Positions 33,420 through 47,224 of a stretch of DNA of 47,224 nt are shown here, one piece after another. How positions within the stretch are numbered: the stretch's first letter is position 1; each line of letters opens with the position of its first letter. Where the stretch lies: IMG/VR virus record IMGVR_UViG_3300030329_005016, positions 1-47,224 of that record; one strand, 5' to 3'. The notes beneath the pieces were generated by a model that worked only from the letters and a program-made list of their open reading frames with translations, had not been told where the DNA came from and did no database searches. The position numbers and the translations under genes were made by a program. Source of the DNA: a virus.

Positions 33420-33610
33420 TACAGCGTCTCCTCCCGCCACCGCGAGAACAGCTGCGCGAGCCGCAGGTACTCTCGCGAGACCTCCTCAGCGCGCGCATGC
33501 TGGCCAGCGTTGCGCAGGTCGTGAGCCACACGCGCAATCGCCTCGAGGGCGTCACGCTGGCGAGAGAGCAGGCGCTTGCGCCGCTCGGCGCTGAGGTCGA
33601 TGACGCTCAA
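33419..33610 (-). CDS. Small helical protein with TTG start
   Basis: 63 residues. A TTG at 33608-33610 overlaps the upstream TGA (TTGA). The product is a basic helical hairpin (RRKRLLSRQRDALEAIARVAHDL, with LAQLFSRWREE at the end). Downstream it overlaps the primase start. Not recognised. Confidence 0.6.
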   Translation of the reverse strand: MSVIDLSAERRKRLLSRQRDALEAIARVAHDLRNAGQHARAEEVSREYLRLAQLFSRWREETL

Positions 33611-34095: not shown

Positions 34096-34139
34096 CGGCG
34101 CACCTCCCGAACTGGACCGCCAGCCCGCACAGTGAGAGC

Positions 34140-34547
34140 ATGGAGGTGATGAAACGAACGATCCTGATGGTCGCGCTGCTGGTCGGCGCTTGTGGGGATG
34201 ACGCTGCGTGGAGCGTCTTCGACTACTCGTGGGAGCAGACCGTTGTCGCTGGAGACATGCCCTGCGGGCCGCTCGGTGAGCCGCTCTGGGATGGGCCACC
34301 ACCCACGCCGGATTGGGCGACGCAACCAACCGAGGAGTGGCGCGTCATCAGCAGCACACCCGGCGAAGAGTTCACCGTTGAGCGCACACTCCTGCCGGGC
34401 GGTGACACGTACACCGTCTCGTGGACCCGCTACGTACCGCCGTCGGGCTTCGAGCCCGAAGAGATGCGCAGCATCCGTCTCGACGGTCGCATCACTGGCG
34501 ACTCGTGCGACGCAGGCATGCAGTGGCAAGGGACGCTGATCGAATGA
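34140..34547 (+). CDS. Lipoprotein on the opposite strand (moron)
   Basis: 135 residues from the ATG at 34140; a second ATG lies at 34149. MKRTILMVALLVGACGDD is a lipoprotein signal with lipobox LVGAC. The mature part has paired Cys and Trp/Pro-rich strands. It is divergent from the CII-like gene (44-base gap) and converges with the Cro-like gene (2-base gap), so it sits backwards within the leftward early operon. As with 9660-9986, an envelope function in the lysogen, such as exclusion of other phages, is an inference. Confidence 0.8.
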   Translation: MEVMKRTILMVALLVGACGDDAAWSVFDYSWEQTVVAGDMPCGPLGEPLWDGPPPTPDWATQPTEEWRVISSTPGEEFTVERTLLPGGDTYTVSWTRYVPPSGFEPEEMRSIRLDGRITGDSCDAGMQWQGTLIE

Positions 34548-34549
34548 CA

Positions 34550-34798
34550 TCACGCCGCCTCGCCATCGCGCTGCGCAGCAGAAATGCTGCGTTCAAGCTC
34601 GACAGGGTCCATGCCTAGGCCCTCGGCGAGACGGCGAACCATCGCGCGCCCTGGCTCAACGCGGCCGTTCTCGTACTTCCAGAGGGCGCCCAGGGTGATG
34701 CCTGCGCCTCGGGCAAGCTGCGACTTGTTCAGCCCGCGCTCTTTCCGAAGGTCGCGAATCACATCGCCGCTCGGCAACTTGTCTTCGTCTGTCCTCAT
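34550..34798 (-). CDS. Cro-like HTH regulator
   Basis: 82 residues. HTH_3 domain at about 12-66: VIRDLRKERGLNKSQLARGAGI, GALWKYENG and RRLAEGLGMDPVELE. It shares several words with the divergent repressor at 34868-35296 (GAxWKYE), so the two may read related operators. Small size and position make a Cro-type role likely. Confidence 0.8.
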   Translation of the reverse strand: MRTDEDKLPSGDVIRDLRKERGLNKSQLARGAGITLGALWKYENGRVEPGRAMVRRLAEGLGMDPVELERSISAAQRDGEAA

Positions 34799-34867
34799 GC
34801 ATACGCACAGTTGAGGATGGCGCAGGCAATGTCAAGCGTACTCACACAAGATTATTGCGGCGTGGGG
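34799..34867. promoter_or_regulatory. Divergent switch region between Cro-like and repressor genes
   Basis: GCATACGCAC (34799-34808) and GCGTACTC (34836-34843) are both repeated in the second regulatory gap at 36229-36274. On the minus strand a perfect TTGACA is at 34835-34830, and AACTGT is 17 bases downstream. On the plus strand GATTAT (34850-34855) precedes the repressor. Both promoters would be overlapped by the shared words, candidate operators. Confidence 0.5.
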
Positions 34868-35296
34868 ATGGCCCGAACCACTTTTCGTGAGGTGAAGACC
34901 ACCGGAGAGAGGATTCGCGAAGCACGCGCGAGCATCAAAATGAGCCAAGCGGAGCTGGCTCGTCAGCTCGGCATCTCGCCCGGCGCGATGTGGAAGTACG
35001 AGAAGGACAAGGTCCAGATGGGTCCGGAGCGCCTCGCCGACACCGCCAAGGTTCTTCGCGTGTCGATGGAGTGGCTGCTCACTGGTGATGAGCCGGATGC
35101 CCCGCCAGACAAAGGTGCGAAGATCTCCCCGCCCGCCTACCACGAGTTCGTTGAGAAGTTCGGCGAGTTCTTCGACGAGGATGTAGTGAAGCTGCTCGAG
35201 GGTCCCGCTCATAACCGCATGGGGCCATTCGGTGAGCCGACAGCGAAGGAATACTACGAGTTGGCCAGGCTCTGGCAGCAGCGGAAGGACCGATGA
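34868..35296 (+). CDS. CI-like repressor (ImmR type)
   Basis: 142 residues from the ATG at 34868 (GTGGGG upstream). HTH_3 at about 12-66 (GERIREARASIKMSQAELAR, then GISPGAMWKYEK). No S24 autoprotease part; the C-terminal 60 residues are helical. Repressors of this build are removed by a separate ImmA-like protease, and one is encoded nearby. Likely keeps lysogeny by blocking the early promoters. Confidence 0.8.
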   Translation: MARTTFREVKTTGERIREARASIKMSQAELARQLGISPGAMWKYEKDKVQMGPERLADTAKVLRVSMEWLLTGDEPDAPPDKGAKISPPAYHEFVEKFGEFFDEDVVKLLEGPAHNRMGPFGEPTAKEYYELARLWQQRKDR

Positions 35297-35538
35297 GCGA
35301 GCAGGCTGAGCGGCGCTCTGGCGGTGGGTTTGCCCCCAACGGGTGCAGCGGCTTTGTCTCGCTCGTCACGCTCGCCATAGTCCTGTGGGCAATCCATAGC
35401 TGGTACACCGGTGCTCTCGCCGACGAGCATCAGCGTGGTTGGGACGATATGAAAAACGAGGTCCGCTTCTCGTGCCAGCGCCGGGACCCAGAGCGCCGAA
35501 ACCCTGTGTGCCGCGACATGCTAGGGCACTATTGGTGA
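35293..35538 (+). CDS. Small membrane protein coupled to the repressor
   Basis: 81 residues; the ATG at 35293 overlaps the repressor stop (ATGA). One hydrophobic segment at about 20-38 (FVSLVTLAIVLWAIHSWYTGAL) followed by a hydrophilic tail with two Cys. Co-expressed with the repressor, so present in the lysogen; superinfection exclusion is a reasonable guess. Its 3' end overlaps the end of the immA gene by 18 bases. Confidence 0.7.
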   Translation: MSEQAERRSGGGFAPNGCSGFVSLVTLAIVLWAIHSWYTGALADEHQRGWDDMKNEVRFSCQRRDPERRNPVCRDMLGHYW

Positions 35539-36228
35539 ACTCTGCGCCTCCCAGCCCTCCGCCGGAGTGACCACCCAAACGCCATGAGGCGCCCACCACG
35601 CCCGCGCCTCGCCTTCGGTCAGGTGGTAGACGTCTCGCGCGCAGTCCTGCGCTAGCGCACGCTCCCAGGCTGGCACACGACGCCGCGAGAAGCCTCGCCC
35701 CTGAAGCCACGGTGAGCGCCAGCGTCTCGCAAGCTGCGTCCCCTGCCATGAACTGACTACGGCGGCGCGCACCTCTGTCGTCCGGCGTGTGGCCACCTCG
35801 AGGCTCACGCCGTAGCGCTCGGCGAGCTCGACCATGTGCCATCCAGTGCGCCCAAGGTCGCGCTTCCACGCGCCATCCGGCATCAGGATGCCCGAGGCGA
35901 TCCCGTTCGCGATGCGCTCCGAGTGCGAGTTGAGGCCCGCGTGCGCTGCGATGATGTGCCCGAGCTCGTGGGCTGCGTCCCACCGCTGGCCCGCTTCGCT
36001 CTTCCGCTCGTCGATGCACACCAGGCCGCCCCTGTTCATCGATAGCCCGCGGTAGCGGCACCAATGGACGCCCCAGGCATCCAGCAGTTCAAACGGGCAC
36101 ACGGGGCCGCCGCCAGCGTGCACGGAGTCGAGGGCAAACCGGGCTGCGCCGGCGATATCGAGGAGCGTTTCGTCCATGGCGCCCATCGATCCACAGGGCT
36201 GTGACAGACAAAAAGCAACTTTCTTCAT
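35521..36228 (-). CDS. immA: ImmA/IrrE-type metalloprotease
   Basis: 235 residues; start at 36226-36228 with AAGGAG five bases upstream. WDAAHELGHIIAAHAG holds HExxH (His87, Glu88, His91), and SERIANGIASGILMPD gives the third ligand Glu104, the ImmA/IrrE signature. In ICEBs1 and phage phi105 ImmA cleaves the ImmR repressor to start induction. Here it is convergent with the repressor operon and divergent from the rightward operon. The C-terminal 90 residues are Trp/Arg-rich and may sense or bind DNA. Confidence 0.88.
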   Translation of the reverse strand: MKKVAFCLSQPCGSMGAMDETLLDIAGAARFALDSVHAGGGPVCPFELLDAWGVHWCRYRGLSMNRGGLVCIDERKSEAGQRWDAAHELGHIIAAHAGLNSHSERIANGIASGILMPDGAWKRDLGRTGWHMVELAERYGVSLEVATRRTTEVRAAVVSSWQGTQLARRWRSPWLQGRGFSRRRVPAWERALAQDCARDVYHLTEGEARAWWAPHGVWVVTPAEGWEAQSSPIVP

Positions 36229-36274
36229 GCGTACTCCTTGACGCATACGCACTCAGGAGTATCTTGCGTGCCTG
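36229..36274 (+). promoter_or_regulatory. Rightward early promoter with candidate operator
   Basis: TTGACG (36238-36243), 16-base spacer, TATCTT (36260-36265), then ATG at 36275, so the transcript would be nearly leaderless. GCGTACTC (36229-36236) and GCATACGCAC (36243-36252) lie beside and inside the promoter, and TACTCCT/AGGAGTA form an inverted repeat across it. The same two words occur at 34799-34843, which suggests control by one repressor. Confidence 0.6.
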
Positions 36275-36556
36275 ATGACGACGCGGAACAACGAACACAC
36301 CGACTACGACGGCCACACCTACGCAGAGCGAGCCGACGAATGGCCCGTCTGCGAGTGCTGCGGTCGTGCGTTCGCAGAAGTGTTCCTGCCCCGCCGCCTC
36401 GGCGCTGGGCTGGTGCGCTTCCCCGAGCCTCGACTGGAGTCGGCGTGGGGCGCGGCGGTGGCTGGTGAGCCGCACTTCGGCGCGTGCGAGGCGTGCGCGG
36501 TTGTCGTGGTGATGGAGCTCGGCGACGAGCGGGAAGAGGAAGAGGTGGCAGCGTGA
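36275..36556 (+). CDS. Zinc-finger-like hypothetical protein, first gene of rightward operon
   Basis: 93 residues. CECC at about 26-29 and CEAC near 70 form two Cys pairs. The C-terminus is acidic (ELGDEREEEE). Its ATG lies about 9 bases after the -10, so translation may be leaderless. Function unknown; being first in the operon, an early regulator or anti-host protein is possible. Confidence 0.7.
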   Translation: MTTRNNEHTDYDGHTYAERADEWPVCECCGRAFAEVFLPRRLGAGLVRFPEPRLESAWGAAVAGEPHFGACEACAVVVVMELGDEREEEEVAA

Positions 36557-36756
36557 GCGACTGGCAACCAAAGAAGGGGGCGCATCGGCGCTTCACATGC
36601 ACGGACTGCGGTCTGGTGGTGGATGAGATTTGGCACGGCTCGGGAGCCGGCGAGTTCATCACGAAGACCAGCAACGACGACTATGGTGTGCCTGACTGCC
36701 CAAAGGCAAGTGGGCGCCCGTACAACCACGCCTTCGAGAAGGAGGTGCTGTCGTGA
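36553..36756 (+). CDS. Small zinc-motif protein
   Basis: 67 residues from a GTG at 36553-36555 (GTGA overlap). CTDC at about 16-19 and a later Cys. Followed by another GTGA junction. Not recognised. Confidence 0.65.
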   Translation: MSDWQPKKGAHRRFTCTDCGLVVDEIWHGSGAGEFITKTSNDDYGVPDCPKASGRPYNHAFEKEVLS

Positions 36757-36995
36757 GCACGCCTCGACTCCCCAACATCAAATACCGCCACAGCGCTGAG
36801 CAGCTCGGCATGCAGGTGGCGAAGCGCCTAGGCTGGAGCCTGAGCGTCACGCCAGACCGCAACGGCGGGTTCAACTACCTGTGGACCGACGCAGAAGGCA
36901 AGCGCCGCATCAGCGGATGGAGCCACGGCAAGCGTCGTGACGGCATCGAAAGCGCGCTTGAGCACATCCGCGAGATGGCGCAGGGGGCGGCGTGA
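36753..36995 (+). CDS. Small hypothetical protein
   Basis: 80 residues, GTG start at 36753-36755. Contains NGGFNYLWTDAEGKRRISGW and a C-terminal helix, a compact alpha/beta protein. Not recognised. Confidence 0.65.
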   Translation: MSTPRLPNIKYRHSAEQLGMQVAKRLGWSLSVTPDRNGGFNYLWTDAEGKRRISGWSHGKRRDGIESALEHIREMAQGAA

Positions 36996-37171
36996 GCGAC
37001 GAGAGGCGATGCAGCTGCGGCAAGCGCGCGACGTTCCGGTATCTCAGCAGCGCAACGGGCTGGCACCCCGCGTGTGACGAGTGCTGGGTGGCCACCCTAG
37101 GCGTTGCACGTGAGCTGGGCATCCCGTGCCCGTGGGAGCGTCTGATGAACGCAGGCAAGGGGGCGGCATGA
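36992..37171 (+). CDS. Zinc-finger minigene, copy A
   Basis: 59 residues from a GTG at 36992-36994. CSCGKRATFRY, then GWHPACDECW: a Cys-x-Cys-Gly-Lys-x-Ala-Thr start and a CxxC end, as in treble-clef fingers. The next gene has the same layout, which suggests tandem duplication. Confidence 0.65.
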   Translation: MSDERRCSCGKRATFRYLSSATGWHPACDECWVATLGVARELGIPCPWERLMNAGKGAA

Positions 37172-37329
37172 AGGAGCACTGCGCATGCGGGAAGGCGGCC
37201 ACGCACCGCTGCTTCACGCGCAACGGCTGGCAGGTGCTCTGCCACCTCTGCCTCGGCGACACGCTGCGGGCGGAGCGAAAGACGGGGCTGCTGTGCCCCA
37301 CGGAACCCATTGAGAGGAGGGCAGCGTGA
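37168..37329 (+). CDS. Zinc-finger minigene, copy B
   Basis: 53 residues from the ATG at 37168. CACGKAATHRC, then GWQVLCHLCL, parallel to copy A (36992-37171). The pair probably arose by duplication and has diverged. Function unknown. Confidence 0.65.
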   Translation: MKEHCACGKAATHRCFTRNGWQVLCHLCLGDTLRAERKTGLLCPTEPIERRAA

Positions 37330-37526
37330 AGGATTGGAGCAAGAGCGCGGATCGTGTGGAGGCCATCGCAGACCTGCTTGGACTCTGCGTTGAGGAGATG
37401 CGCAGAGATGGGCTCGCTGGTGGTTTGGGCGAAATGCTCATCCGGTCGTTCGAGTCGAACCGCAAGGACCTTGAGCAAAATGTGGCTTACCTGCGCGCAC
37501 GACAGAAACGAAAGGGGGCGAAATGA
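37326..37526 (+). CDS. Small helical protein
   Basis: 66 residues, GTG start in GTGA overlap. Helical throughout with a basic end ([10 protein letters not shown]). Not recognised. Confidence 0.65.
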
Positions 37527-37693
37527 CGCTCGTATCGGAAGCGGTAGAGGCCGCAGGCATCATGGAGCTCACGATGCGCGAAGAGGAAGCGCTCGACCGG
37601 AGCGCGAACCGCGAGTCGGGCGGAGACCCGGTGCGCGCGGACGACGCGATCATTTTGGAGGCGCTCGTGAAGCGCGCAGAGGAGGCAGCATGA
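37523..37693 (+). CDS. Small acidic helical protein
   Basis: 56 residues; ATG at 37523 preceded by AAAGGGGGCGAA and overlapping the upstream stop. Acidic helices ([22 protein letters not shown]). It lies directly before bet; a nuclease inhibitor such as lambda Gam is much larger, so no role is proposed. Confidence 0.6.
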
Positions 37694-38694
37694 GCGGGCT
37701 AGCAGCAGTGAAAGGTGGTGCGCTCGCGCAGCGCGACGACCTCGAAGAGAAACGCGAGCTTATCCGCAACACGGTGGCGGAGGGGTGCAACGACAGCGAG
37801 GTGGAGCTGTTTCTTGCTACGTGCAAGCGAACCGGGCTGGACCCGTTTGCGCGCCAAATCTACGCCATCAAACGCCGCGTGAAGCGGGATGGTCGATGGG
37901 TGGAGCGCATGACCATTCAGACGTCCATCGATGGCTATCGAGTTATCGCCGAGCGGACGGACTCTTACGAGGGTCAGGGAAAAACGGAGTGGTGCGGGCC
38001 GGATGGTCAGTGGCGCGACGTGTGGCTCGACAAGAAGCCTCCAGCAGCAGCACGAGTGTCGGTCTACCGAAAGGGTTTTCGAGAGCCGATGACGGCCATT
38101 GCTCGCTGGGAAAGCTACGCACAGAAAACGCGGGACGGCTACTCGGCGATGTGGTCGAAGATGCCAGACACGATGTTGGCAAAGTGCGCGGAGGCGCTAG
38201 CGCTGCGCAAGGCGTTCCCCAACGACCTCAGCGGCATCTACACGCGCGAGGAGATGGAGCAGGCCGAGAGCGACGGCGAGGAGCCAGCGCAACAGCTCAG
38301 CGTCGTGCAACGCGACGTGCGCGCCGACGACCCCGAAGCGTTCGACGCGGCACGCAAGGCTCAGGCTGAGGACATCGCTTATGCGAAGTCCTGGTGCGAG
38401 TCACACGCTGAAGAGGTTGATGCGATGGCTGCCGAAGGCAAGCGACTCAAGGCGCTCGGTAACAAAGCAGAGCAGGAAGAGCGCGACCGACTGCGTGACG
38501 ACGTTGAGGAGTGGTTGAGTAGGTACGCGCTCGACTTTCGACACCTCACCGGACAGGGCGGCGCACGAAAGCAGCTTTGGAACAAGCTCTTCCGCGCAGC
38601 CGAGGGAGCGGGTTTTGAAGCAGAGCTGAGGCCAATGGCAGCACGGGCTGCTGACGCGATCGAGAAACAGAACGAAGCAGGAGAAGAAGAGTAA
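37690..38694 (+). CDS. bet: Bet-family single-strand annealing protein
   Basis: 334 residues from the ATG at 37690. [38 protein letters not shown] and the [12 protein letters not shown] block match the lambda Bet (Red beta) family; [21 protein letters not shown] is the conserved helix near 190. Bet anneals complementary strands in phage recombination. The C-terminal 130 residues are helical and acidic and may bind SSB. The partner exonuclease was not found in the window. Confidence 0.9.
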
Positions 38695-39131
38695 TGGCAC
38701 GCGAAGGACTCAACAAAGTGACTCTCATCGGCAACCTGGGCGCGGACCCGGAGCTGAAGCACACGCAGGGCGGGCAAGCGGTACTCAAGATGCGCCTCGC
38801 AACAACGGAGACGTTCAAACAGCGCGACGGCCAGCGCGGCGAGAGCACGCAGTGGCACTCCGTCGTGCTCTGGGGCAACCGAGCCGAGGCGCTCGCGAAG
38901 TTTCTGGAGAAGGGCCGCACCATCTGCGTCGAGGGCTCCATCGAGTATCGGCAGTGGGAGGACAACGACGGCAACAAGCGCAACGCCACCGAGATCAAGG
39001 CGCGAAACGTCATCCTGCTGGGTGGCGGAGGCGGCGAGAAGCGCGGCGGGTTCGGTGGTGGCTCGAAGCCGAGCGGCGGGTTCAACGAGTACCCCGCAGA
39101 CGACTTCGGCGATGACGAGATTCCGTTCTAG
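38694..39131 (+). CDS. ssb: Single-stranded DNA-binding protein
   Basis: 145 residues; TAATG overlap with bet. OB fold signature: LNKVTLIGNLGADPELKHT, then STQWHSVVLWGNRAEALAKFL. A Gly-rich linker leads to the acidic tip DDFGDDEIPF that docks partner proteins. It protects single strands in replication and recombination and, next to bet, probably forms a recombination unit with it. Confidence 0.95.
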   Translation: MAREGLNKVTLIGNLGADPELKHTQGGQAVLKMRLATTETFKQRDGQRGESTQWHSVVLWGNRAEALAKFLEKGRTICVEGSIEYRQWEDNDGNKRNATEIKARNVILLGGGGGEKRGGFGGGSKPSGGFNEYPADDFGDDEIPF

Positions 39132-39139
39132 GAGACGCC

Positions 39140-39595
39140 ATGAGCTTCAAAGAGAAACTTGCGATCCTCGAAGCAGCGGTGATTGCCGAAGAGAGAGCCG
39201 AGGTCGCGATGATGTGCCCCGGCTCGGGGCCGATCGAATACGACGCGTGGCAGAAGGCGGTATCACACCTCACCGACACGCGGCATGTGCTGATGTCGAG
39301 CGCACAGAGCGTGGAGAGCCATGCGGCACAATCGTTACCAACGCACGTCAGGTGTCCCGTGTGCGGCTTCGATCACGTGCGTATGAACGCCGTGACCACT
39401 CATGCTCGTGAGCACGAGGACGGTCCGGTCAACATCATGCGAGTCACCTTTGACACGCCGGTTGCGGGTGGTTCCGTAAACCCAAGCCCACGCCGATCTG
39501 GGCTCGTCATTCACTGCGAGTGCGAGAATGGCCACGAGTTCGATATCGCGCTCGCGAACCACAAGGGCCAGCTCGAGATGGGTGTAGAGTTATGA
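39140..39595 (+). CDS. Hypothetical protein with Cys motifs
   Basis: 151 residues. N-terminal helices, then RCPVCGFDHV and HCECENGHEF, two Cys pairs in the layout of a zinc ribbon. Near-end strands. Function not recognised. It follows ssb with an 8-base gap. Confidence 0.7.
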   Translation: MSFKEKLAILEAAVIAEERAEVAMMCPGSGPIEYDAWQKAVSHLTDTRHVLMSSAQSVESHAAQSLPTHVRCPVCGFDHVRMNAVTTHAREHEDGPVNIMRVTFDTPVAGGSVNPSPRRSGLVIHCECENGHEFDIALANHKGQLEMGVEL

Positions 39596-40476
39596 CCCCC
39601 ACCCCACAACCCGGCGACACGTGGACCAACGCCGCAGGAGTCGTGCGCGAGATCGTGCGCCGCTCCGGCGACGGCTGCGAAGTGCGCCACCCGCAGACCG
39701 ACCTCGAGAGCCTCGCGGTCATGTCGTGGCCGCGTGACTTCCACGGCTTCAAGCTGGAGACGCGGATGCGAAAGCCCGCCCCCGGCGACGTCTGGCACCG
39801 CGACGACGCGTTCATGACCGTGCTTGCGGTCTACGTACGCGACGAGCAAGTCGTCGGCGCCGACGTGCAGCACTCCGACGACCGCGATGGCGTGACGAGC
39901 GACGTGCTCTGGCCCGACGGCTTCGATGGGTGGCAGCCCGGCGTGTGTCGTGCGACGGCTCTAGCAGACCGCCCACCCACACCGGAGCGCGACGAGCGTT
40001 CTGAGGTGGAGCGGTTGCGGGAGGAGCTTGCGGAGGTGCAGGCGGCGTTCACGGATGCCTCGGACAGCGCGGATGAACTCAGTAAGGCGATCCAGCACGC
40101 ATGGTTCGCACTCCCCGAAGCGCTCCGCAAGCGCGACAGCGTTACGCTGGCGCAGGCCGTGCGAGCAGAAACCGCGATGCTCGAGCAGGAGCGCGACGAG
40201 GCTTGCACGCAGCTTGAGGCCATCGGCAAGGCACTAAACGCGTGGCCGACGAGCGACATCGTGGAGCTCGCAAAGGCGACGAAGAGGCAGTCGGACCAGT
40301 GGGAGGCAGTGCACGACAAGGACCTCATCCCGCGCGCAGATGTCGTGCGGGCGTTGCGGGAGCTGGGCAAATATCCAAGGCCGTTCGCGTCGTGGACGAA
40401 TGCGCTGCGGCAGGTCGGGCATGAGCTAGGCATCACCGACGACGAACTGCGCGACGCGCGCGAAGGGGGTGAGTGA
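39592..40476 (+). CDS. Hypothetical protein with duplicated N-terminal domain and coiled coil
   Basis: 294 residues from the ATG at 39592. Two units of about 55 residues follow each other: PQPGDTWTNAAGVV and PAPGDVWHRDDAFM, each ending in a W-P-x-x-F-x-G segment. After them come about 150 residues of coiled coil and helices. Unknown function; the duplicated unit is small and beta-like. Confidence 0.7.
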   Translation: MTPTPQPGDTWTNAAGVVREIVRRSGDGCEVRHPQTDLESLAVMSWPRDFHGFKLETRMRKPAPGDVWHRDDAFMTVLAVYVRDEQVVGADVQHSDDRDGVTSDVLWPDGFDGWQPGVCRATALADRPPTPERDERSEVERLREELAEVQAAFTDASDSADELSKAIQHAWFALPEALRKRDSVTLAQAVRAETAMLEQERDEACTQLEAIGKALNAWPTSDIVELAKATKRQSDQWEAVHDKDLIPRADVVRALRELGKYPRPFASWTNALRQVGHELGITDDELRDAREGGE

Positions 40477-40482
40477 TGGAGA
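40458..40482. repeat. 25-bp direct repeat at a gene joint (second copy 40706-40730)
   Basis: The same 25 bases, from GCGCGAAGGGGG to ATGGAGA, occur at 40458-40482 and 40706-40730. Each spans a stop/ribosome site/start joint, so the gene between them (40476-40724) is a cassette flanked by identical ends. Similar AAGGGGG words precede other starts in this operon. Confidence 0.85.
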
Positions 40483-40724
40483 AGGGTGATACCTGCACGC
40501 AGCAACACGAGGCACTGAAGCACCTGCGGTACGACGAAACGGAGGATGGGTATTGGGAGGCGTACGTTCGTGGCGCTCCCGCCTTCAACCTCAACTGGAA
40601 CGACGAATGGTCTCAGAGCCAGCCGGAGGACCTCTGCTTCTTGCGTTACATCGGCGACCTGGTCCGCGACGCCTTCTGCGCCGGCTGGGATGCTGCGAAG
40701 GCTGAGCGCGAAGGGGGTGAGTGA
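40476..40724 (+). CDS. Small hypothetical protein, cassette between direct repeats
   Basis: 82 residues from the ATG at 40476. Aromatic-rich middle (NLNWNDEWSQSQPEDLCFLRYIGDL) and ends AKAEREGGE. It lies between the two 25-bp repeats, so it may have been inserted by recombination. Not recognised. Confidence 0.65.
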   Translation: MEKGDTCTQQHEALKHLRYDETEDGYWEAYVRGAPAFNLNWNDEWSQSQPEDLCFLRYIGDLVRDAFCAGWDAAKAEREGGE

Positions 40725-41122
40725 TGGAGAGGTACTACTCTGTCTATGGTGTTGAGCGCTTCAGCGCAACGACTCCGAAGGAAGCTGCCGAAGAGTATCT
40801 GGAGTGGAGCAACGCCGGATGTTTGCCCGATGTGGTGACAATCGTCGAATGGCGACCACGAGAAGAGTTGCTTGAGTACATCGCCGCAGACATTGGGAAC
40901 TGGATTTGCGAGTTTGTCGACGACGCCTTGCAGGACAACTACCCAGAGGCGCTCGACCCAGAGGGTGAGGTGGAGTTCCTGCACTCGGATGGCCAAGACG
41001 AGCTCCGTGCTGGAATGAAGGCGCTCATGTACCGCGTGTTGCGCCGACACGCGCACATCTTCGACTGCGAAGAAGTGGGGTGTCGCCAATACCTTCGCGA
41101 AGACCTCGAGGCCGACCAATGA
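40724..41122 (+). CDS. Hypothetical protein
   Basis: 132 residues from the ATG at 40724. The N-terminus reads MERYYSVYGVERFSATTPKEA, a short beta unit plus helix found at the start of several unknown phage proteins. The rest is helical and acidic. Not recognised. Confidence 0.65.
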   Translation: MERYYSVYGVERFSATTPKEAAEEYLEWSNAGCLPDVVTIVEWRPREELLEYIAADIGNWICEFVDDALQDNYPEALDPEGEVEFLHSDGQDELRAGMKALMYRVLRRHAHIFDCEEVGCRQYLREDLEADQ

Positions 41123-41352
41123 CCGCCCGCAGCGCGGTGGACTCGGAACCGAGCGTCACCATCTACCTGCACTACGGTTACACGTGCGCGGACTGCCCGT
41201 TGCATTGGTACAACGACGACGGGTGGAGCTGCGGTGCTGACGAGGAGCGCAGGACGTTCCATGCTGGCGAGGGCCGCGACGTGCCGGTGCCACCCGAGTG
41301 GTGCCCGGTGCGTGGGCACGGCAAGGTTGTTGTGGTGCGAGTGGAGCAGTGA
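41119..41352 (+). CDS. Small Cys-rich hypothetical protein
   Basis: 77 residues, ATGA overlap. CADCPLHWYNDDGWSCG, then EWCPVRGHG, four Cys that may bind zinc. Not recognised. Confidence 0.65.
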   Translation: MTARSAVDSEPSVTIYLHYGYTCADCPLHWYNDDGWSCGADEERRTFHAGEGRDVPVPPEWCPVRGHGKVVVVRVEQ

Positions 41353-41570
41353 TGGGTGATGCAGCGGAGCGCATTGCGGCAGCTCTTGAAGGACTGCTGG
41401 AGATTGAGCGCGAGCGCCGCGCGGAGGAACGCATGGATCGACGGAAGGCGCCCAAGCGCAAGAACAAGGGCGGGCGAAGCGTCACGCTTCCGGAGAGGTC
41501 AAACGACGACCTCGCGGCTGCAAGAGCCATCAAGGCGCTGCGGCGCGCTGGTGTAGGGTCGTCACGATGA
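41352..41570 (+). CDS. Small basic protein before the integrase
   Basis: 72 residues from the ATG at 41352; it overlaps the int start by 4 bases. An acidic/basic helix, then KRKNKGGRSVTLPERSNDDLAAARAI: a basic patch followed by a helical pair. Its place before int would fit an excisionase or accessory DNA-bending protein, but no Xis motif is seen. Confidence 0.6.
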   Translation: MGDAAERIAAALEGLLEIERERRAEERMDRRKAPKRKNKGGRSVTLPERSNDDLAAARAIKALRRAGVGSSR

Positions 41571-42985
41571 GAGGTCACCGCAACGGTTCAATAACTCACG
41601 AGTACGGGCGCTTCCGGGTCCGCGTGAGCCTCGACGACGGCACGCGCCTCAGCCTCGGCACATACGCAACCAAAGAGGAAGCGGAAGACATGCTCGCCGA
41701 ATCGCTGCATCGGCTTGAAGAACAAGAAATGATGACCGGCGCTGTGACCGTCGCTGCGTACGGAGAGCGCGTGCTCGATGCGCGCGAGCGGTCCGGCCTT
41801 CGAGGTGTCCGGCGTGAGCGTAGTGCGTTCCGAACGAACGTCGCGTCGTCGTCGCTCGGCACGCTTCCGCTTCGAGCCGTGACCCGACGCGATGGCGACC
41901 GGTGGATCGGAGAGCTGCTCCGCCGACCCTCAACACGTGGCGGCACGCTGGCTCGCGGCACGGTGGTGCGAGCGCTCCGGATTGCCCGCGCAGTCTTCGA
42001 CCAGGCAAGCTCGGAGCTGCTCATCGATGCCAACCCTCTGCGCGAGGTCCGGGTGCCCAGCGTCGCCCGGACTGACGAGCCGTGGACGTTCCTCACCCTC
42101 GACGAGATCGAGCGGGTCACGACCTGCGAAGACATCCCCCTCGAGAAGCGCTCCGCGTACATCGTCGGCATCTACGCCGGATTGCGCGCCGGTGAGCTCT
42201 GGGGGCTCCGGTGGGATGACGTGCGCCTCGATGGTCGCCCCGAGCTCGTGGTGCGCCACTCGTACCGCGGGCCCACGAAGGCAGGCCGGGTAGGGCGCGT
42301 GCCATTGCTGGCTCCAGCAGTCGCAGCGCTGAGGCAGTGGCGCGACGAGGGCACGCCGCATGCGCACGTCTGGCCGGCACCCGGTGGCGGGTGCTTCGCC
42401 GATGGGTACGATGGCGGATGGGCCGATCGCCGGTACCGAACGGGCAAGGGTAAGCTGAAGGTGCGCCCCGGCCACAAAACGGTGGCCAGAGTGTCCCGCC
42501 CGGTCCGGTTCCATGACCTACGGCACACCTGCGCGAGCCACCTCGTGATGGGCTCCTGGGGCCGCGCGTGGCGCCTTGAGGAGGTGCGGGAGATGCTCCG
42601 GCACTCGACCACGAAGATGACGGAGCGGTACGCCCATTTGGCGCCCGATGCGCTCCATTCGGCTGCCGCAGCGACGGCAACCAGCTGGCCGGACGCTGGC
42701 CGGAGGACGGAAGACAAAAAGGCTCCCGAGGGAGCCTCCGTGCCTATTTTTTCGGGGGTGGAGCGACGGGGGATCGAACCCCGGACCTTCGCACTGCCAG
42801 TGCGTGCCAGGGGCGAAGGGTCTCGGGAGGTTAGGGCGCTTTCCGGCCAGCGTCCGGCCAGGGAACTGGCTATCCGCTATTTGCGGGCGTTGGTGGTGGG
42901 AGATCCCATCCGCGATCGCGTTGGTGCTGAGCTCGCAGAGGCGGTGCTCGCCGAGAGCATAGACGATGAGAGCGAGGTGGGGTGA
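41567..42985 (+). CDS. int: Tyrosine integrase with attP inside its 3' end
   Basis: 472 residues. N-terminal arm-binding part (about 1-50), core-binding helices (55-155), catalytic domain with Arg207 (GLRAGEL), Lys238 region, His316-Arg319 (HDLRH), His346 and Tyr355 (TERYAHL). Normal tyrosine integrases end soon after the Tyr; here the frame runs on another 117 codons through a terminator, a tRNA-Ala 3' half and both arm-type repeats, and ends in TGATG overlap with the next gene. Integration would cut the gene near codon 410 and exchange the last 60 or so residues. Mx8 IntP of Myxococcus shows the same design. Confidence 0.92.
   Translation: MRGHRNGSITHEYGRFRVRVSLDDGTRLSLGTYATKEEAEDMLAESLHRLEEQEMMTGAVTVAAYGERVLDARERSGLRGVRRERSAFRTNVASSSLGTLPLRAVTRRDGDRWIGELLRRPSTRGGTLARGTVVRALRIARAVFDQASSELLIDANPLREVRVPSVARTDEPWTFLTLDEIERVTTCEDIPLEKRSAYIVGIYAGLRAGELWGLRWDDVRLDGRPELVVRHSYRGPTKAGRVGRVPLLAPAVAALRQWRDEGTPHAHVWPAPGGGCFADGYDGGWADRRYRTGKGKLKVRPGHKTVARVSRPVRFHDLRHTCASHLVMGSWGRAWRLEEVREMLRHSTTKMTERYAHLAPDALHSAAAATATSWPDAGRRTEDKKAPEGASVPIFSGVERRGIEPRTFALPVRARGEGSREVRALSGQRPARELAIRYLRALVVGDPIRDRVGAELAEAVLAESIDDESEVG
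42685..42704. repeat. Arm-type inverted repeat, left (right copy 42842-42861)
   Basis: CTGGCCGGACGCTGGCCGGA at 42685-42704 is the exact reverse complement of 42842-42861. Each copy is two 9-bp units CTGGCCGGA spaced 11 bases, one helix turn. They flank the attP core symmetrically, as integrase arm sites do. Confidence 0.85.
42716..42737 (-). terminator. Intrinsic terminator after the tRNA-like core
   Basis: On the minus strand AGGCTCC-CTCG-GGAGCCT is followed by TTTTT (42720-42716). It starts 21 bases after the 3' end of the tRNA segment and would end the host tRNA transcript once the phage is integrated. In the int direction it is antisense, with a weaker T-run at 42747-42752. Confidence 0.85.
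42759..42804 (-). other. attP: attP core: 3' half of tRNA-Ala(GGC)
   Basis: Read on the minus strand: anticodon arm (loop 42800-42794, CTGGCAG, anticodon GGC), variable loop, T arm CGGGG-TTCGATC-CCCCG (42783-42767), acceptor strand TCGCTCC and discriminator A at 42759. The 5' half is absent and the first anticodon stem pair is A-A, so identity to a host gene probably begins at 42804. This marks integration into a tRNA-Ala gene, with strand exchange around the anticodon. Confidence 0.88.
42842..42861. repeat. Arm-type inverted repeat, right
   Basis: TCCGGCCAGCGTCCGGCCAG, exact reverse complement of 42685-42704, with two 9-bp units. It lies on the other side of the tRNA-derived core, 37 bases from the end of tRNA identity. 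Confidence 0.85.
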
Positions 42986-43413
42986 TGACTTCGCGTCACG
43001 ACTACATGCGCGACTATCAGCGCCAGTGGGCGCGAAAGCGTCGCGAGGCGTTCTTCGATGGGAAGTCATGCGCTCGCTGTGGCTCGACCGACCGCATGGA
43101 GCTCGACCACATCGACCCGAGCAAGAAGGTTCACCACGCCATTTGGTCTTGGTCGAAGGTGCGCCGCCGAGAGGAGTTGTCGAAGTGCCAGGTGCTCTGC
43201 CATGAGTGCCACTCGGCGAAGACATCAAGGTTCCGACGCGTGCTCACCGACGAGCAGGTGGTGGCGATTCGGGCCGGCTACAGTGCGGGCGACAGCCTTC
43301 GCAAGCTGAGCCGCGACTTCTGCGTGGACCGGTCGACCATCAAGCGAGCGGTCGAGGGCTATGTGCACGAGCGCGTCGAGGGTCAGCGAATCGGCGATGA
43401 GGACGCGGCATGA
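42985..43413 (+). CDS. HNH endonuclease with C-terminal HTH
   Basis: 142 residues from the ATG at 42985. SCARCGSTDRMELDHIDP and CQVLCHECHSAKT form the zinc-bound HNH motif; the C-terminal part (VVAIRAGYSAGDSLRKLSRD, then VDRSTIKRAV) is a DNA-binding HTH as in free-standing homing endonucleases. It is coupled to the end of int, beyond attP, so in a prophage it lies at the other end from the int start. Confidence 0.85.
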   Translation: MTSRHDYMRDYQRQWARKRREAFFDGKSCARCGSTDRMELDHIDPSKKVHHAIWSWSKVRRREELSKCQVLCHECHSAKTSRFRRVLTDEQVVAIRAGYSAGDSLRKLSRDFCVDRSTIKRAVEGYVHERVEGQRIGDEDAA

Positions 43414-43853
43414 CCCTCAAGCTCATCCCCGTCACGCTCCGCGAGGCGCGCGCGTTCGTTGAGCGCCACCATCGGCACCACCCAGCGCCGCGCGGGTGCA
43501 TCTGCTGCGTTGGTGTCGCTCTCGATGACAATGTGGTCGGGGTCGCTATCGTGGGTCGCCCGGTTGCACGCATGCTGCAAGACGGCTGGACCGCCGAGGT
43601 CGTGCGCGTAGCGACCGATGGCACGCACAACGCGTGCTCGAAGCTCTACGGTGCAGCATGGCGAGCAGTGCGGGCGCTCGGGTACCGCAGGCTGGTCACA
43701 TACACGCTGCCCAAAGAGGGCGGTGCGTCACTGCGCGCTTCGGGGTTCACACTTCTCGGCGAGGCCGGTGGCGGATCGTGGTCTCGCGAGCGTCGACCTC
43801 GTGTCGACCTGCACCCAACGCAAACAAAGCTGCGGTGGGAGAAGACCGCGTGA
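43410..43853 (+). CDS. XF1762-family protein (GNAT-like)
   Basis: 147 residues. The order LIPVTLREARAFVERHHRHH, GVAIVGRPVARMLQDG, EVVRVATDGTHNACSKLYGAA, TYTLPKEGGASLRASGFTLLGEAGGGSW is the XF1762 family, which resembles N-acetyltransferases. Common in phages and islands; the substrate is unknown. ATGA overlap with the HNH gene. Confidence 0.85.
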   Translation: MTLKLIPVTLREARAFVERHHRHHPAPRGCICCVGVALDDNVVGVAIVGRPVARMLQDGWTAEVVRVATDGTHNACSKLYGAAWRAVRALGYRRLVTYTLPKEGGASLRASGFTLLGEAGGGSWSRERRPRVDLHPTQTKLRWEKTA

Positions 43854-43909
43854 GCGCGAGCGATTCCCCCGCCGGATATCGCTCACCGAATGAAGGAAAG
43901 AGGTAAGAG

Positions 43910-44206
43910 ATGAACGATCGAGTCAAACGAGCTGGGCAGCGGCTCTCGAACGTGGCCTTCAACCTCGCGCAGCGTGAGGGAGATGCGCTCACGGCCCGTG
44001 ACTGCGAATCGATGCGGACCGCCTGGCAGGAGTGGGATGCAGCCACAGCGGCGCCATCGCCATCGGAGCTGGCTCTCAGAAACGTAATGCTGCTCGCGCA
44101 GAAGATGAAACGGAAGCATCCGGAGCTCGCGGGTCACCTACTGCGCTTCTGCTCGGACGCTGGCGTGCGTCCGACGATCCTCCGAGGCGAGAGCAAGGCA
44201 GGCTGA
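43910..44206 (+). CDS. Hypothetical helical protein
   Basis: 98 residues from the ATG at 43910, with AAAGAGG upstream. Helical, no Cys pair. The 56-base gap before it (43854-43909) has no clear feature. Not recognised. Confidence 0.65.
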   Translation: MNDRVKRAGQRLSNVAFNLAQREGDALTARDCESMRTAWQEWDAATAAPSPSELALRNVMLLAQKMKRKHPELAGHLLRFCSDAGVRPTILRGESKAG

Positions 44207-44286
44207 TGGACTGGTGGGCGGACATGCTGCTGACGCTCGCCGCGTTGGCGTTGGCGGAGCTCATGTTCGCGGCGTGGAAGCGCTGA
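44206..44286 (+). CDS. 26-residue single-span membrane peptide
   Basis: TGATG overlap with the upstream gene. MDWWADMLLTLAALALAELM followed by FAAWKR: one hydrophobic helix with a basic end. Very short; real because of tight coupling and frame quality, function unknown. Confidence 0.5.
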   Translation: MDWWADMLLTLAALALAELMFAAWKR

Positions 44287-44346
44287 CCGTCGACATCCAG
44301 CTTGGGAAGACAACGCCCGAGCCCCAAAAACCACGAAAGCGCGAGA

Positions 44347-44394
44347 AAACACCGGGTTTCTGAACCCTCAGACGCCCCATGTCGGCCGGTGTTT
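44347..44394. other. Inverted repeats in the largest internal gap
   Basis: AAACACCGG (44347-44355) pairs with CCGGTGTTT (44386-44394), and GGGTT-TCTG-AACCC (44354-44367) is an inner hairpin. The gap 44287-44456 has no convincing gene. This may be a processing or attenuation site, or a small RNA. Confidence 0.5.
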
Positions 44395-44456
44395 CGCCGC
44401 AAAAGGATGGACGGAGGTATGGACGCCGCCGTCTTGCTGCAACAAAGGAGTGAGAG

Positions 44457-44678
44457 ATGGTACGCATCGAGTGCAGGACAAACCAGGACGACTTCGGCGG
44501 CGCAGAGTGGCCGACCCACACCTACTACCCTCCCAAGATAGGCGAGCGCGTTAGGGCTAAGGACGGCCGCATGTTGGCAGTGGTCAGTATCGCCCATGGA
44601 ATGACTCGGGCGGATCGCTACTCGGATACGCCACCAGAGCCCGTGCTACTCGTTGAGCTGAACAGGTGGTCGCCCTAA
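44457..44678 (+). CDS. Small hypothetical protein
   Basis: 73 residues with AAAGGAG eight bases before the ATG at 44457, the best ribosome site of this block. Beta-rich (YYPPKIGERVRAKDGRMLAVVSIAHG), with a KOW-like start. Not recognised. Confidence 0.7.
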   Translation: MVRIECRTNQDDFGGAEWPTHTYYPPKIGERVRAKDGRMLAVVSIAHGMTRADRYSDTPPEPVLLVELNRWSP

Positions 44679-44711
44679 GCAACCCCCACCCCCTCCCGCC
44701 GACAAGCGGGA

Positions 44712-44858
44712 ATGACGCACATCCGCACCATCGCCCGCCACGGCCTCGCCTCGTTCCTCTTCCGCACTCCGGACGGCTCCACCGCGGAGCTCATCGTGGG
44801 GCCCTCATGGGGTGTTTGGGTCTACGGTGGGATGCGGGTGCCGGTGGTGCTACGATGA
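44712..44858 (+). CDS. 48-residue hypothetical protein
   Basis: ATG at 44712-44714. MTHIRTIARHGLASFLFRTP, then TAELIVGPSWGVWVYGGMRV, a small beta-strand protein with good third-position G/C. No clear ribosome site. An overlapping frame (44666-44920) is Pro/His-rich and less likely. Confidence 0.5.
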   Translation: MTHIRTIARHGLASFLFRTPDGSTAELIVGPSWGVWVYGGMRVPVVLR

Positions 44859-44862
44859 GCAC

Positions 44863-45096
44863 ATGGCGAACATCTCACAAAAGGAAGCCGACGAGTTCCG
44901 GCGAGCTGTCCAAGAGTTGATCCGGCGCATCGAAGAGGACCCGACCGTGGGTCACGAACTCTTAGATAGAGCGGGCATTCGGTACACCGCCCGTAAAGAT
45001 GGCGAGGCCATCGACATCACAAGGAGCTACGACGCGAAGCTGTTTTGCTCTCACGCAGGCATGTCTGCTCAAATCCGCCTGTCCGACGACCAGTAG
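44863..45096 (+). CDS. Hypothetical protein, last gene of the rightward operon
   Basis: 77 residues from the ATG at 44863. Acidic N-terminal helix, then strands. The codon use is less GC-biased than its neighbours. Followed by a 183-base gap with the two-way terminator (45097-45279 holds no other gene that I can support). Confidence 0.6.
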   Translation: MANISQKEADEFRRAVQELIRRIEEDPTVGHELLDRAGIRYTARKDGEAIDITRSYDAKLFCSHAGMSAQIRLSDDQ

Positions 45097-45236
45097 CACC
45101 TTTGTACGACTGGCATCCTAGCGGCCCTGGCATTTGGTAAATACGGTGCTACGTTGTGGGCTGCCGGTTTTGTGTCGCACCAACTTGCACCATCACAGCA
45201 ACGATAGGGGTCTTTCGTGTTTCGCGAGATGCCAGG

Positions 45237-45269
45237 AAAAGGGCCGCGGTTCCAGCTGTGGCCCTTTTT
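45237..45269. terminator. Two-way intrinsic terminator
   Basis: AAAAGGGCC (45237-45245) pairs with GGCCCTTTT (45260-45268), with T-runs on both strands. It ends both the rightward operon (last stop 45096) and the leftward late operon (amidase stop 45280). Confidence 0.85.
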
Positions 45270-45279
45270 CTTGGGCGCA

Positions 45280-45963
45280 TCAATAGCGCCCCTCGTACGG
45301 CCCCCACCCCGCGGGCAGAGGGCGCCCATCGTCGCGTGTCCACGTCGGGCGCTCCACAAGGCCCAGCGAGAGCCACACGGGCCGCAGCGCACGCCACAGC
45401 GCCGCGCCGGGGTCGCTTCGGCGTGACCCGCTCGCCTGCCGGTGGGCGTACACGTAGCGAATGCGCATGCCCTCCGCCTGTCCCAGCGACACGAGCAGCC
45501 GCAGCGCCTCCGCAGCTGCCGCAACACGTGCGCCGGTGAGCTCCGTTTGCTTGCTGACGTCGCCCCACATGGTCCGCTTCGCTTCGTCCGCGACCGTGTT
45601 GGGGTCGTCGACGAGCCCTGGATAGCGGCCCTCGATTTCGAGCCCCAGTGTGGATCGGTTGAGCGCGTTCGCGTGATAGAGGTACTGCCGCAGCGGAGCA
45701 CCGAGCACGACCACGCCGTCGAGTGCGACCGCATGCGCGGGCACGTCCTCGGCGACGCGGTACGCCGGCGCGAGCTCGGGTGCGCCTTCAGCTGCCGCCC
45801 GCTTCTTGTGCGACGCGCGAGCGCCGAAAACCACTGCCGTCTGGTGCAATGTGATGCCGTCGACGTCGCGCGGGTCCCGCAGAACCGTGCGCCCGCCTGC
45901 GACACGCGAGCGTGCGCGCTTGGCGGGAGCTTCGGCGCGTAGGTCGAGGATGCGTGGCGTCAT
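45280..45963 (-). CDS. Endolysin, N-acetylmuramoyl-L-alanine amidase
   Basis: 227 residues; ATG at 45961-45963. The amidase_2/PGRP layout is visible: GITLHQTA (first zinc His), YLYHANALNRSTLGLEIEG, and YVYAHRQASGSRRSDPG with the second His and the Asp ligand. It cuts the bond between N-acetylmuramic acid and L-alanine to break the cell wall. No signal peptide, so it needs a holin. It is the last gene of the late operon. Confidence 0.85.
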   Translation of the reverse strand: MTPRILDLRAEAPAKRARSRVAGGRTVLRDPRDVDGITLHQTAVVFGARASHKKRAAAEGAPELAPAYRVAEDVPAHAVALDGVVVLGAPLRQYLYHANALNRSTLGLEIEGRYPGLVDDPNTVADEAKRTMWGDVSKQTELTGARVAAAAEALRLLVSLGQAEGMRIRYVYAHRQASGSRRSDPGAALWRALRPVWLSLGLVERPTWTRDDGRPLPAGWGPYEGRY

Positions 45964-46139
45964 TCCGCCGCCTCCGGCCTCGTGGCCTGCTCTTGCAGCT
46001 GCTCCGCGTTCCACGCACGGTTTGCTGCACGCAGCTCTGCGACGCGCTGGAGGTGCTCAGCACGGGGTGTGCCCGGCATCTCATACGCGTTGGCGAGAGC
46101 ACGGCCCGCGTCGAAGATGGCGCGCTCGAGGGGCGTCAC
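45960..46139 (-). CDS. Small helical lysis-region protein
   Basis: 59 residues from a GTG at 46137-46139 (GTGA overlap). Helical, Arg/Ala/Glu-rich (LQRVAELRAANRAWNAEQLQEQ), no membrane segment. A periplasmic or scaffold-like role is unproven. Confidence 0.6.
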   Translation of the reverse strand: MTPLERAIFDAGRALANAYEMPGTPRAEHLQRVAELRAANRAWNAEQLQEQATRPEAAE

Positions 46140-46249
46140 TTGAAGACTCCGCCAATGCCGCGAAGCATCGGCACCACGAAGAGCCACGTCACCACCGCGA
46201 GCGGAATGAGGCCAACCGCGAGACCCACGAAAAAGCCGGTCCAGAACAT
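46136..46249 (-). CDS. 37-residue membrane peptide
   Basis: Start at 46247-46249, overlapping the upstream stop by one base. MFWTGFFVGLAVGLIPLAVV begins one long hydrophobic helix that ends in MLRGIGGVFK. Very small; a pinholin or antiholin-like role is possible only by position. Confidence 0.6.
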   Translation of the reverse strand: MFWTGFFVGLAVGLIPLAVVTWLFVVPMLRGIGGVFK

Positions 46250-46440
46250 CACTCGCCCCCGAACTTCTCGGCGGCCTCTGCGTACGCCGCAGCCTTCGCC
46301 AGCGAGGTCTTCAGCTCACCCGAGAGGATGGCGTCCACCTTCTCGCGGTCGCCGCTCTTCACGGCGGACACGATGGCCTTGCCGATGGAGAATGCCGTCT
46401 CCGCGACTTCGAGCGCGTCTTTGATCCAACCCAGGTTCAT
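46249..46440 (-). CDS. Small helical lysis-region protein
   Basis: 63 residues, start at 46438-46440. Amphipathic helices (WIKDALEVAETAFSIGKAIVSAV, short membrane-active look). ATGA overlap with the upstream gene. Not recognised. Confidence 0.6.
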   Translation of the reverse strand: MNLGWIKDALEVAETAFSIGKAIVSAVKSGDREKVDAILSGELKTSLAKAAAYAEAAEKFGGE

Positions 46441-46943
46441 GGCGTTGCCTCCTCACAAAGCTGGCTCCCAAAGTGGGCGCCAAGGTCGATGGCGGTGTTC
46501 AGCGCTGCCGGCACTTCGAGCCCCGCAGCTACGACGGCATCGCGAAGCCGCCCAAGCGAGCCCATCAGACACTTTGCGACGCGGACGAAGTTGCGGTCGT
46601 CGCCAGTCTCGACCCAAATGTCGAGACCCGCTTGCGTCACGAGCAGCTTGCCCTTTGAGATACGCAGCGCCACTTCGGCGGCGTCGAGCTCGCGCATGGC
46701 TTCGCGAAACTCCGCCATCGAAGACACCTCCTCGAGCGCCTCGCGCGAGCGCGACGTGTACCGCTCCGCGACCTCTACGTCGGTGGCTTCGAGGCCGCGC
46801 GCCGATGCCGTCAGCACGCTTTGCGCAATGTCTGTTGGCTGTGCGGACGCACCACACCCACCGCACAGCGCGACGAGCACGGCTGCGACGATGAGCACAC
46901 CGATGCCTTCAAGGCCGAAGTGGTCGAGTTTTCTATTCAGCAT
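46437..46943 (-). CDS. Membrane-anchored or lipoprotein lysis-region protein
   Basis: 168 residues. LIVAAVLVALCGGCGAS is a hydrophobic segment with Cys residues near 27-30; the lipobox is imperfect (CGGC). The remainder is helical. Position among lysis genes suggests a spanin or other envelope protein; the family is unknown. Confidence 0.65.
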   Translation of the reverse strand: MLNRKLDHFGLEGIGVLIVAAVLVALCGGCGASAQPTDIAQSVLTASARGLEATDVEVAERYTSRSREALEEVSSMAEFREAMRELDAAEVALRISKGKLLVTQAGLDIWVETGDDRNFVRVAKCLMGSLGRLRDAVVAAGLEVPAALNTAIDLGAHFGSQLCEEATP

Positions 46944-47152
46944 CGGTAACTCTCCGGCCTAGTGATGGTGCTGTGAATCTTGTTCAGCTTCTTTTGCGTC
47001 TTCTCGTCGCCCGCTTCGGGGTCGATGGAGTGCACAAAGACGAGCGACAGGTGACGCTGAATCACCTCAAGCTCGGTGGCGCTCAGTCCGTCGGTTGGCG
47101 TCCGAACTTCGAGGGCGCCTTGCAGCCAGTAGCAGAAGTCGCGCGGGGTCAC
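46937..47152 (-). CDS. Small conserved phage-type protein
   Basis: 71 residues from a GTG at 47150-47152. MTPRDFCYWLQGALEV, then LSATELEVIQRHLSLVF is a pattern I have seen in many phage small proteins of unknown role. It overlaps the lipoprotein-like gene by 7 bases. Bases 1-28 repeat its start because of the window overlap. Confidence 0.8.
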   Translation of the reverse strand: MTPRDFCYWLQGALEVRTPTDGLSATELEVIQRHLSLVFVHSIDPEAGDEKTQKKLNKIHSTITRPESYRC

Positions 47153-47224
47153 GACGCACCCCCTTTGCTCTCCTTCTTTCCACCGAAGAGCGAGTTCAGC
47201 GCAGCGAGCACGACGCCGCCCACG
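47127..47224. repeat. 98-bp terminal direct repeat (right copy)
   Basis: Same sequence as 3-100. On the minus strand it holds the last codons of the holin candidate (stop 47149-47151) and the start of the gene ending at 46937, confirming that the map closes on itself. Confidence 0.95.
47149..47224 (-). CDS. 3' end of holin candidate (cut by window edge)
   Basis: Last 24 codons plus stop of the protein encoded in full at 25-240 (ends GGKKESKGGAS). This is a duplicate view created by the terminal overlap, not a second gene. Confidence 0.85.
   Translation of the reverse strand, partial: VGGVVLAALNSLFGGKKESKGGAS

Follow-up and report, generated by a model that had tools for sequence, protein, structure and literature searches.

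An attachment site inside the integrase gene of a myxobacterial phage, with C-terminal exchange on integration in relatives and its prediction for the phage itself

Integrative elements whose attachment (att) site lies within the gene of their own integrase were described in 2016 as 'very few' (PMC4701971), and the kind of system studied here is already known from Mx8 and Mx9. On integration of Mx8, 112 residues of IntP are reported to be exchanged for 13, giving a lysogen form that is less active (PMC4701971); a further account describes the specificity of this form as changed rather than the enzyme as inactivated, and reports a similar principle for Mx9 (PMC6070905). For the suicidal archaeal integrases of the SSV1 type, integration is reported to split the gene into inactive int(N) and int(C) (PMC8371274). 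In BPs, attP is reported to lie in the repressor gene, the part removed from the free form carrying an ssrA-like degradation tag, and BPs Int is stated to carry a C-terminal proteolysis signal too (PMC4557955). Streptococcal ICEs in rumA are reported to have attR inside the integrase gene, with different C-termini in the free and integrated states (PMC4701971), and Islander, as published, explicitly provides for integrases extending across attP (PMC4383910).

The window, that is, the whole stretch of 47,224 nucleotides analysed here (IMG/VR virus record IMGVR_UViG_3300030329_005016), is a myxobacterial phage. Its two ends share a terminal repeat of 98 bp (3–100 = 47127–47224), by which it closes into a circle of about 47.1 kb; the attP seen here is accordingly that of the free form. 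Megablast of positions 30000–47224 matched no phage record, and tblastn with the window integrase (Int) gave seven records, all weak, with no close phage record among them.

The int gene (41567–42985, + strand) encodes in its free form a tyrosine integrase of 472 aa (PF00589, E=1.4e-15; PHROG 1, integrase). The catalytic set of tyrosine recombinases is R-K-HxxR-H-Y; in 33 aligned integrases, the window included, R207, K238, R319, H346 and Y355 were invariant and H316 nearly so, and with this set and the PF00589 domain the window Int belongs to the tyrosine recombinases. The codon of Tyr355 is at 42629–42631 (+), and every catalytic residue precedes codon 396, where the attP core starts, i.e. 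lies upstream of the crossover. The predicted fold has a beta domain at the N-terminus and then helical and catalytic domains, with Foldseek matches to Tn1549 Int and lambda Int; this predicted fold and the arm repeats described below fit a heterobivalent architecture, arm-binding and core-binding.

Past Tyr355, the int frame contains in this order a left arm-type repeat, a terminator-like hairpin, the antisense 3' part of a tRNA-Ala, a right arm-type repeat and the stop codon, confirming the layout of an attP inside int given in the initial annotation. The core (42754–42804, − strand; int codons 396–413) is the 3' part of tRNA-Ala(GGC) through the anticodon stem-loop; the match covers the acceptor 3' strand, the T arm and the anticodon stem-loop, and ends at 42804. 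ARAGORN found no tRNA in the window, as expected with a partial gene. When the core was compared with 377 genomes from the phylum of Sorangium, 57 matched at E<=1e-6, and the best seven loci (L284–L290; 91–94% identity over 47–56 bp) were tRNA-Ala(ggc) in 7/7 according to ARAGORN. The anticodon stem-loop (42790–42804, −) is the probable crossover region, and it is in this part of the tRNA that the mapped relatives lose identity. Core ends were placed at a constant distance from the T-loop, a rule checked on the mapped cases only.

The arm repeat CTGGCCGGACGCTGGCCGGA is present in inverted copies at 42685–42704 (left, +; int codons 373–380) and 42842–42861 (right, +; within the swapped tail), which match at 20/20 positions, a score of 20, whereas 60 shuffles reached at most 10. 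The two arms lie in inverted orientation on either side of the core, and each is itself a direct pair of units with 11-bp spacing. The terminator-like hairpin (42718–42739, −), also inside int, would end the restored tRNA-Ala transcript; alone it is not significant (one found, 1.2 expected in shuffles).

Arms and tails were compared over a set of 31 rows, made up of 25 natural free forms (L226 among them), five free forms joined in silico and Mx8. Excluded were L025, L026 and L220 (sense-strand tRNA), L027 and L206 (short tails), L212 and L242 (core not located by the T-loop rule), L034, L215, L218 and L219 (contig ends) and the duplicates L204, L208, L214, L217, L224, L232 and L233. Inverted arms spanning the core beat 60/60 shuffles (0/60 as good) in only 11/31 rows and reached <=3/60 in 14/31, and arm repeats were rejected as a universal mark of the design. 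In 13 of the 14 rows with arms, the right arm started 31–48 nt past the core mark (L148 being the exception, at 82), and the left arm started 49–84 nt before the tRNA 3' end in all of the 14 but G366:C1, where the distance was 28. Arm sequences vary from member to member, as co-evolution of the arms with the N-terminal domains would lead one to expect. In three integrases the tRNA piece appeared to be sense-oriented (L220 from the DNA; L025 and L026 from the peptides, by eye), and the design may also occur with the opposite tRNA orientation.

The window locus fits the Mx8 type, with attP inside int and downstream of the catalytic Tyr. In Mx8, too, attP and the 3' part of an antisense tRNA lie within int past the catalytic Tyr; IntP has a long free-form tail (104 aa past the core mark), and a small gene overlaps the int start. 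Unlike the window, Mx8 lacks an inverted arm repeat in the shuffle test, 59/60 shuffles being as good. The kinship with Mx8 raised in the initial annotation holds for the layout, which may stem from common descent or have arisen independently; the proteins are only remotely similar, a two-sequence comparison giving 29% identity over 204 aa (E=5e-10), and IntP stands on a long branch of the integrase tree, in no starred set. SSV1-type integrases share with the window an att site inside the integrase gene, but all catalytic residues of the window Int stay upstream of the crossover, which sets it apart from the suicidal type. BPs-type mycobacteriophages are similar in that attP lies in a coding frame and integration shortens the C-terminus of a regulator; their attP is in the repressor gene whereas that of the window is in int, so that the window does not belong with integration-dependent immunity systems. 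The streptococcal rumA elements differ in having a serine integrase and a protein-coding target gene.

Genes on both sides of int overlap it. Upstream, a small gene (41352–41570, +; 72 aa from the chosen ATG, open frame from 41298) overlaps the int start with its stop codon and is a candidate directionality factor; its product gave no Pfam family above cut-off and no PHROG match at E<=0.1. Among 12 other free forms, five (L207, L221, L222, L231, L244) have a small gene whose end coincides with the int start, and in L211, L237, L245 and L028 one ends <=16 nt from it. By eye, the small gene of L205 at this position resembles an integrase fragment, and some of the small upstream proteins end in a DLxxARAxxxLxRxG-like motif. 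Downstream, an HNH endonuclease gene with HTH_38 (42985–43413, +) overlaps the int stop with its start (TGATG), and would be parted from int on integration. An ORF of >=60 aa starts at −1 or +2 of the tail stop in 13/25 natural free forms vs 457/2205 (20.7%) nearby control stops; in L244 and L229 the first residues of the coupled product resemble, by eye, a DNA methylase.

No integrated copy of the window phage was found among the genomes scanned. Relatives were sought in genome contigs (best 80 of 452), in viral contigs (best 80 of 227 in one scan) and in the 377 genomes of the phylum, 54 of which matched the integrase scan at E<=1e-20. At 28 loci, near-copies included, int overlaps an intact antisense tRNA, and its stop codon lies inside the tRNA at 21/28. 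With the doubtful L209 excluded, 27 loci remain at nine tRNA kinds (Gly-ccc, Thr-cgt, Arg-acg, Arg-cct, Arg-tct, Arg-ccg, Cys-gca, Lys-ttt and His-gtg), with the stop inside the tRNA in 20/27; for most of these, the int side alone was observed. Selection on the frame for a stop supplied by the tRNA was considered and not adopted: 21/28, near-copies included, is not significant against 16.7±2.4 expected from random frames, and at 7/28 loci int does not stop inside the tRNA.

Both att ends were located in five of the 25 prophage regions examined, with cores of 46, 47, 47, 65 and 145 bp; in the remaining 20 the contig edge was reached, no tRNA was present at int, or no convincing repeat was found. 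Joining the ends in silico kept the int frame open past the core in 5/5. The residues of its own that Int has past the shared part changed from 5 integrated to 47 joined in G003:C8 (5.3 kb between att repeats), from 5 to 122 in G007:C172 (the Polyangium prophage of L030, 33.8 kb), from 27 to 97 in G006:C20 (34.5 kb), from 5 to 97 in G352:C50 (42.7 kb) and from 7 to 91 in G366:C1 (15.8 kb). The comparison of prophage junctions with free forms, which the initial annotation had named as the check, thus gave 5–27 own residues in the integrated state vs 47–122 when joined. G006:C20 is a less clean case, because its left att end repeats 145 bp that include int 3' end sequence, which suggests a tandem prophage or a remnant element. 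G003:C8 stands out as a very small element with an integrase of this kind and may be a satellite or a prophage in decay.

A natural pair is formed by L226, a viral contig with attP, and L022, a Myxococcaceae genome contig with an intact tRNA-Arg. Their DNA is 87% identical over 1300 bp; identity stops inside the tRNA and does not resume beyond. The tail of L226 is present, but frame-shifted relative to int (locus position ~5233), which could be an assembly error, a broken gene or a programmed frameshift. L207 and L209, whose 76% identity breaks off inside tRNA-Trp, were also considered as free and integrated partners and dropped, the same phage-like DNA resuming about 1.3 kb further on in both. 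In L209, int stops inside a complete tRNA-Trp (5138–5211) and phage genes shared with L207 resume at 6503–7783; it may represent either a tandem prophage or a phage in which a tRNA gene is present in full. Because of L209, an intact tRNA beside int need not mean integration.

For the window itself, int was joined to host tRNA-Ala genes (L284, L286, L287, L288), and in 4/4 a lysogen Int of 417 aa, ending in RRSPS or WCSPS, was predicted vs 472 aa in the free form. An exchange of the Int C-terminus on integration was observed in relatives at the mapped junctions and in L226/L022, together with the anatomy of the site; for the phage itself, the replacement of about 60 residues by a short tRNA-encoded end, in line with the initial proposal, is predicted from the joining with tRNA-Ala.

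The swapped tail of the window comprises the 59 residues after codon 413 (residues 414–472; 42806–42982, +), with a predicted helical hairpin at 431–444 and 449–464. In 27/31 post-core tails, GC was lowest at the second codon position, a codon-position bias. The open length past the core averaged 69.5 codons in the 25 natural tails vs 42.9 in shuffled DNA, where the highest of 300 set means was 64.0, and the shortest of these 25 tails had >=33 codons. The short-tailed free forms L027 and L206, outside this set, have only ~10–20 residues past the core; counted as ~10 and ~20, they lower the mean from 69.5 to ~65. In a leave-one-out tail profile, the window tail scored 19.5 bits vs 3.3±2.1 for its shuffles (0/200 as good), 2.0 when reversed and −1.1 and 0.4 in the other frames. 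Over the 30 tails of this test (L226 omitted), nine beat all 200 shuffles, 16 were within the 5% level and 14 missed it; the Mx8 tail showed marginal similarity to the profile (10/200). The L148 tail scored below nearly all of its own shuffles, its reversal reaching 11.6, and that of L221 gave 9.8 forward vs 13.7 reversed. From these two scores and the 14 tails missing the 5% level, it follows that the profile is partly driven by composition and helix content and that the tail is diverse, not one uniform domain. As shown by these sequence statistics, the tail past attP has the properties of a coding module and not of chance read-through.

AlphaFold gave window Int residues 369–427 a pLDDT under 50 (probably disordered) and the helices 431–444 and 449–464 confidence blocks of ~85–87; in L245, residues 388–447 were of low confidence and helices 450–465 and 471–483 were at ~76–80. 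The window tail is accordingly modelled as a linker, predicted to be disordered and encoded by attP DNA, that leads into a predicted hairpin of two helices. None of seven tails matched a Pfam family above its cut-off, none of five matched PHROGs at E<0.03 (best E=0.039), and a profile of six tails gave no convincing match among solved chains (best E=0.11). Stand-alone tail domains beside integrases without the design were not established by a scan of 45,288 open frames with the tail profile at E<=0.5, a scan that missed several divergent tails: its matches were int tails and attR remnants belonging to the members on which the profile had been trained, and beyond these the out-of-frame tail of L226 (E=0.016), a frame on the minus strand in the window region (E=0.021) and L288 (E=0.33).

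One near-identical free-form pair was informative, L231/L232, with no change in 58 tail codons and 36 synonymous plus 4 nonsynonymous changes in the 300 codons before the Tyr; the other five pairs were identical throughout, and L233 was like L232. The pair was not counted as evidence of selection on the tail: synonymous changes are absent there too, and shared origin or exchange of the segment is therefore as likely as selection.

A tree of 85 related integrases was built; att lies inside int in 64 of them and not in the other 21 (hand-labelled, near-copies included); the 85 were chosen by similarity to members, so that 64/85 is not a prevalence. The tree was a quick one with SH-aLRT support only, into which part of the integrases collected was entered, and some of the rows counted as lacking the design yielded no att site whatsoever. 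The design changes state at least eight times, four of these changes being forced by starred branches, and a single origin was not supported. The starred group of the window has nine members, seven of them labelled as lacking the design, and the state therefore changes easily. In close relatives such as L004, L020, L096, L099 and L144, int ends soon after the Tyr, before any tRNA-like sequence. An early int stop in related phages had been named beforehand as evidence against the proposal; it does occur in these relatives, and the design is not universal even in the clade of the window. The integrase family spans at least 11 tRNA targets, nine seen occupied and Ala and Trp as attP.

We consider it probable that the window carries a lambda-type tyrosine integrase with its own attP in the gene, whose tail is swapped by integration, the hairpin favouring integration and its loss leaving an Int for excision. 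Integration at the anticodon region of the tRNA would cut the window int after codon ~413, and the tRNA would be restored on the int side by the phage-borne 3' part. The lysogen Int would end a few residues past the core on an antisense-tRNA stop (417 aa in the window), and the tail hairpin, the right arm site and the next gene would move to the opposite prophage end; precise excision would rebuild the long int. The hairpin may act as an accessory contact domain, in the tetramer or intasome or by bridging to arm sites, and would render the free Int proficient in attP x attB recombination. Once the hairpin had been lost through integration, further integration would be lowered, and the remaining Int would excise with the small coupled partner, so that the att site would record the state of the phage in the enzyme's own sequence. 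That the tail hairpin favours integration, and is hence removed by it, is inferred because of the published work on Mx8, as reported in PMC4701971 and PMC6070905.

Other explanations of the tail have to be weighed against this one. If attP lay at the int 3' end by chance and a GC-rich frame simply stayed open past it, the tail would be functionless. Frames averaging ~43 codons in shuffled DNA of like make-up are in accordance with such passive read-through, as are the existence of relatives without the design, the short tails of L027 and L206, the out-of-frame tail of L226 and the 14/30 tails that miss the 5% level. We nevertheless regard it as very unlikely, given the codon-position bias in 27/31 tails, the resemblance of the window tail to diverged tails in the profile with low reversed and other-frame controls, the length of >=33 codons in 25/25 natural tails tested (L027 and L206 lying outside that set) and the hairpins predicted in two proteins, those of the window and L245.

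The tail could also be a destabilising tag, with a short-lived free Int and a stable lysogen form, the switch operating via protein level. BPs offers the precedent, with the ssrA-like tag of its repressor and the C-terminal proteolysis signal of its Int as reported in PMC4557955, and some tails were seen by eye to end in small residues. However, no terminal motif common to the tails was seen, the part that aligns is the internal hairpin, and the lysogen form of Mx8 is reported to be less active (PMC4701971); a tag of this kind seems unlikely. Somewhat less improbable, though still doubtful, is that compactness or modularity explains the arrangement, int, attP and the tRNA 3' part moving as one cassette and the swap being a tolerated side effect. 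Many tRNA targets in one family and repeated state changes, at least four forced by starred branches, agree with it, and self-targeting compact modules are discussed for the archaeal suicidal integrases (PMC8371274); yet it leaves the shared, predicted-folded hairpin beyond the core unexplained. A tail hairpin that favours integration remains the preferred reading.

In the open-licence literature searched, no report was found of how widely this design occurs among elements of the Myxococcota type, or of a swapped hairpin common to several of them; as far as these searches reach, the breadth of the design, the hairpin that its members share and the placing of arm sites in coding DNA are new. 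The occurrence of the swap in relatives at many host tRNA genes suggests that what appeared a rare oddity is a common design. With the difference between free and lysogen forms lying in a shared hairpin that is predicted to fold, the question posed by the Mx8 tail becomes testable in many natural elements. For annotation, the finding is a warning that an integrase can have one C-terminus in the integrated element and another in the free one. More tentatively, and with rather less confidence than for the phage itself, phages and islands of Myxococcota and their relatives may have directionality partly written in their DNA: an integration-promoting hairpin would be carried by the free integrase and removed by integration, at no fewer than 11 tRNA targets, with the same coding DNA serving as linker, arm sites and core at once.
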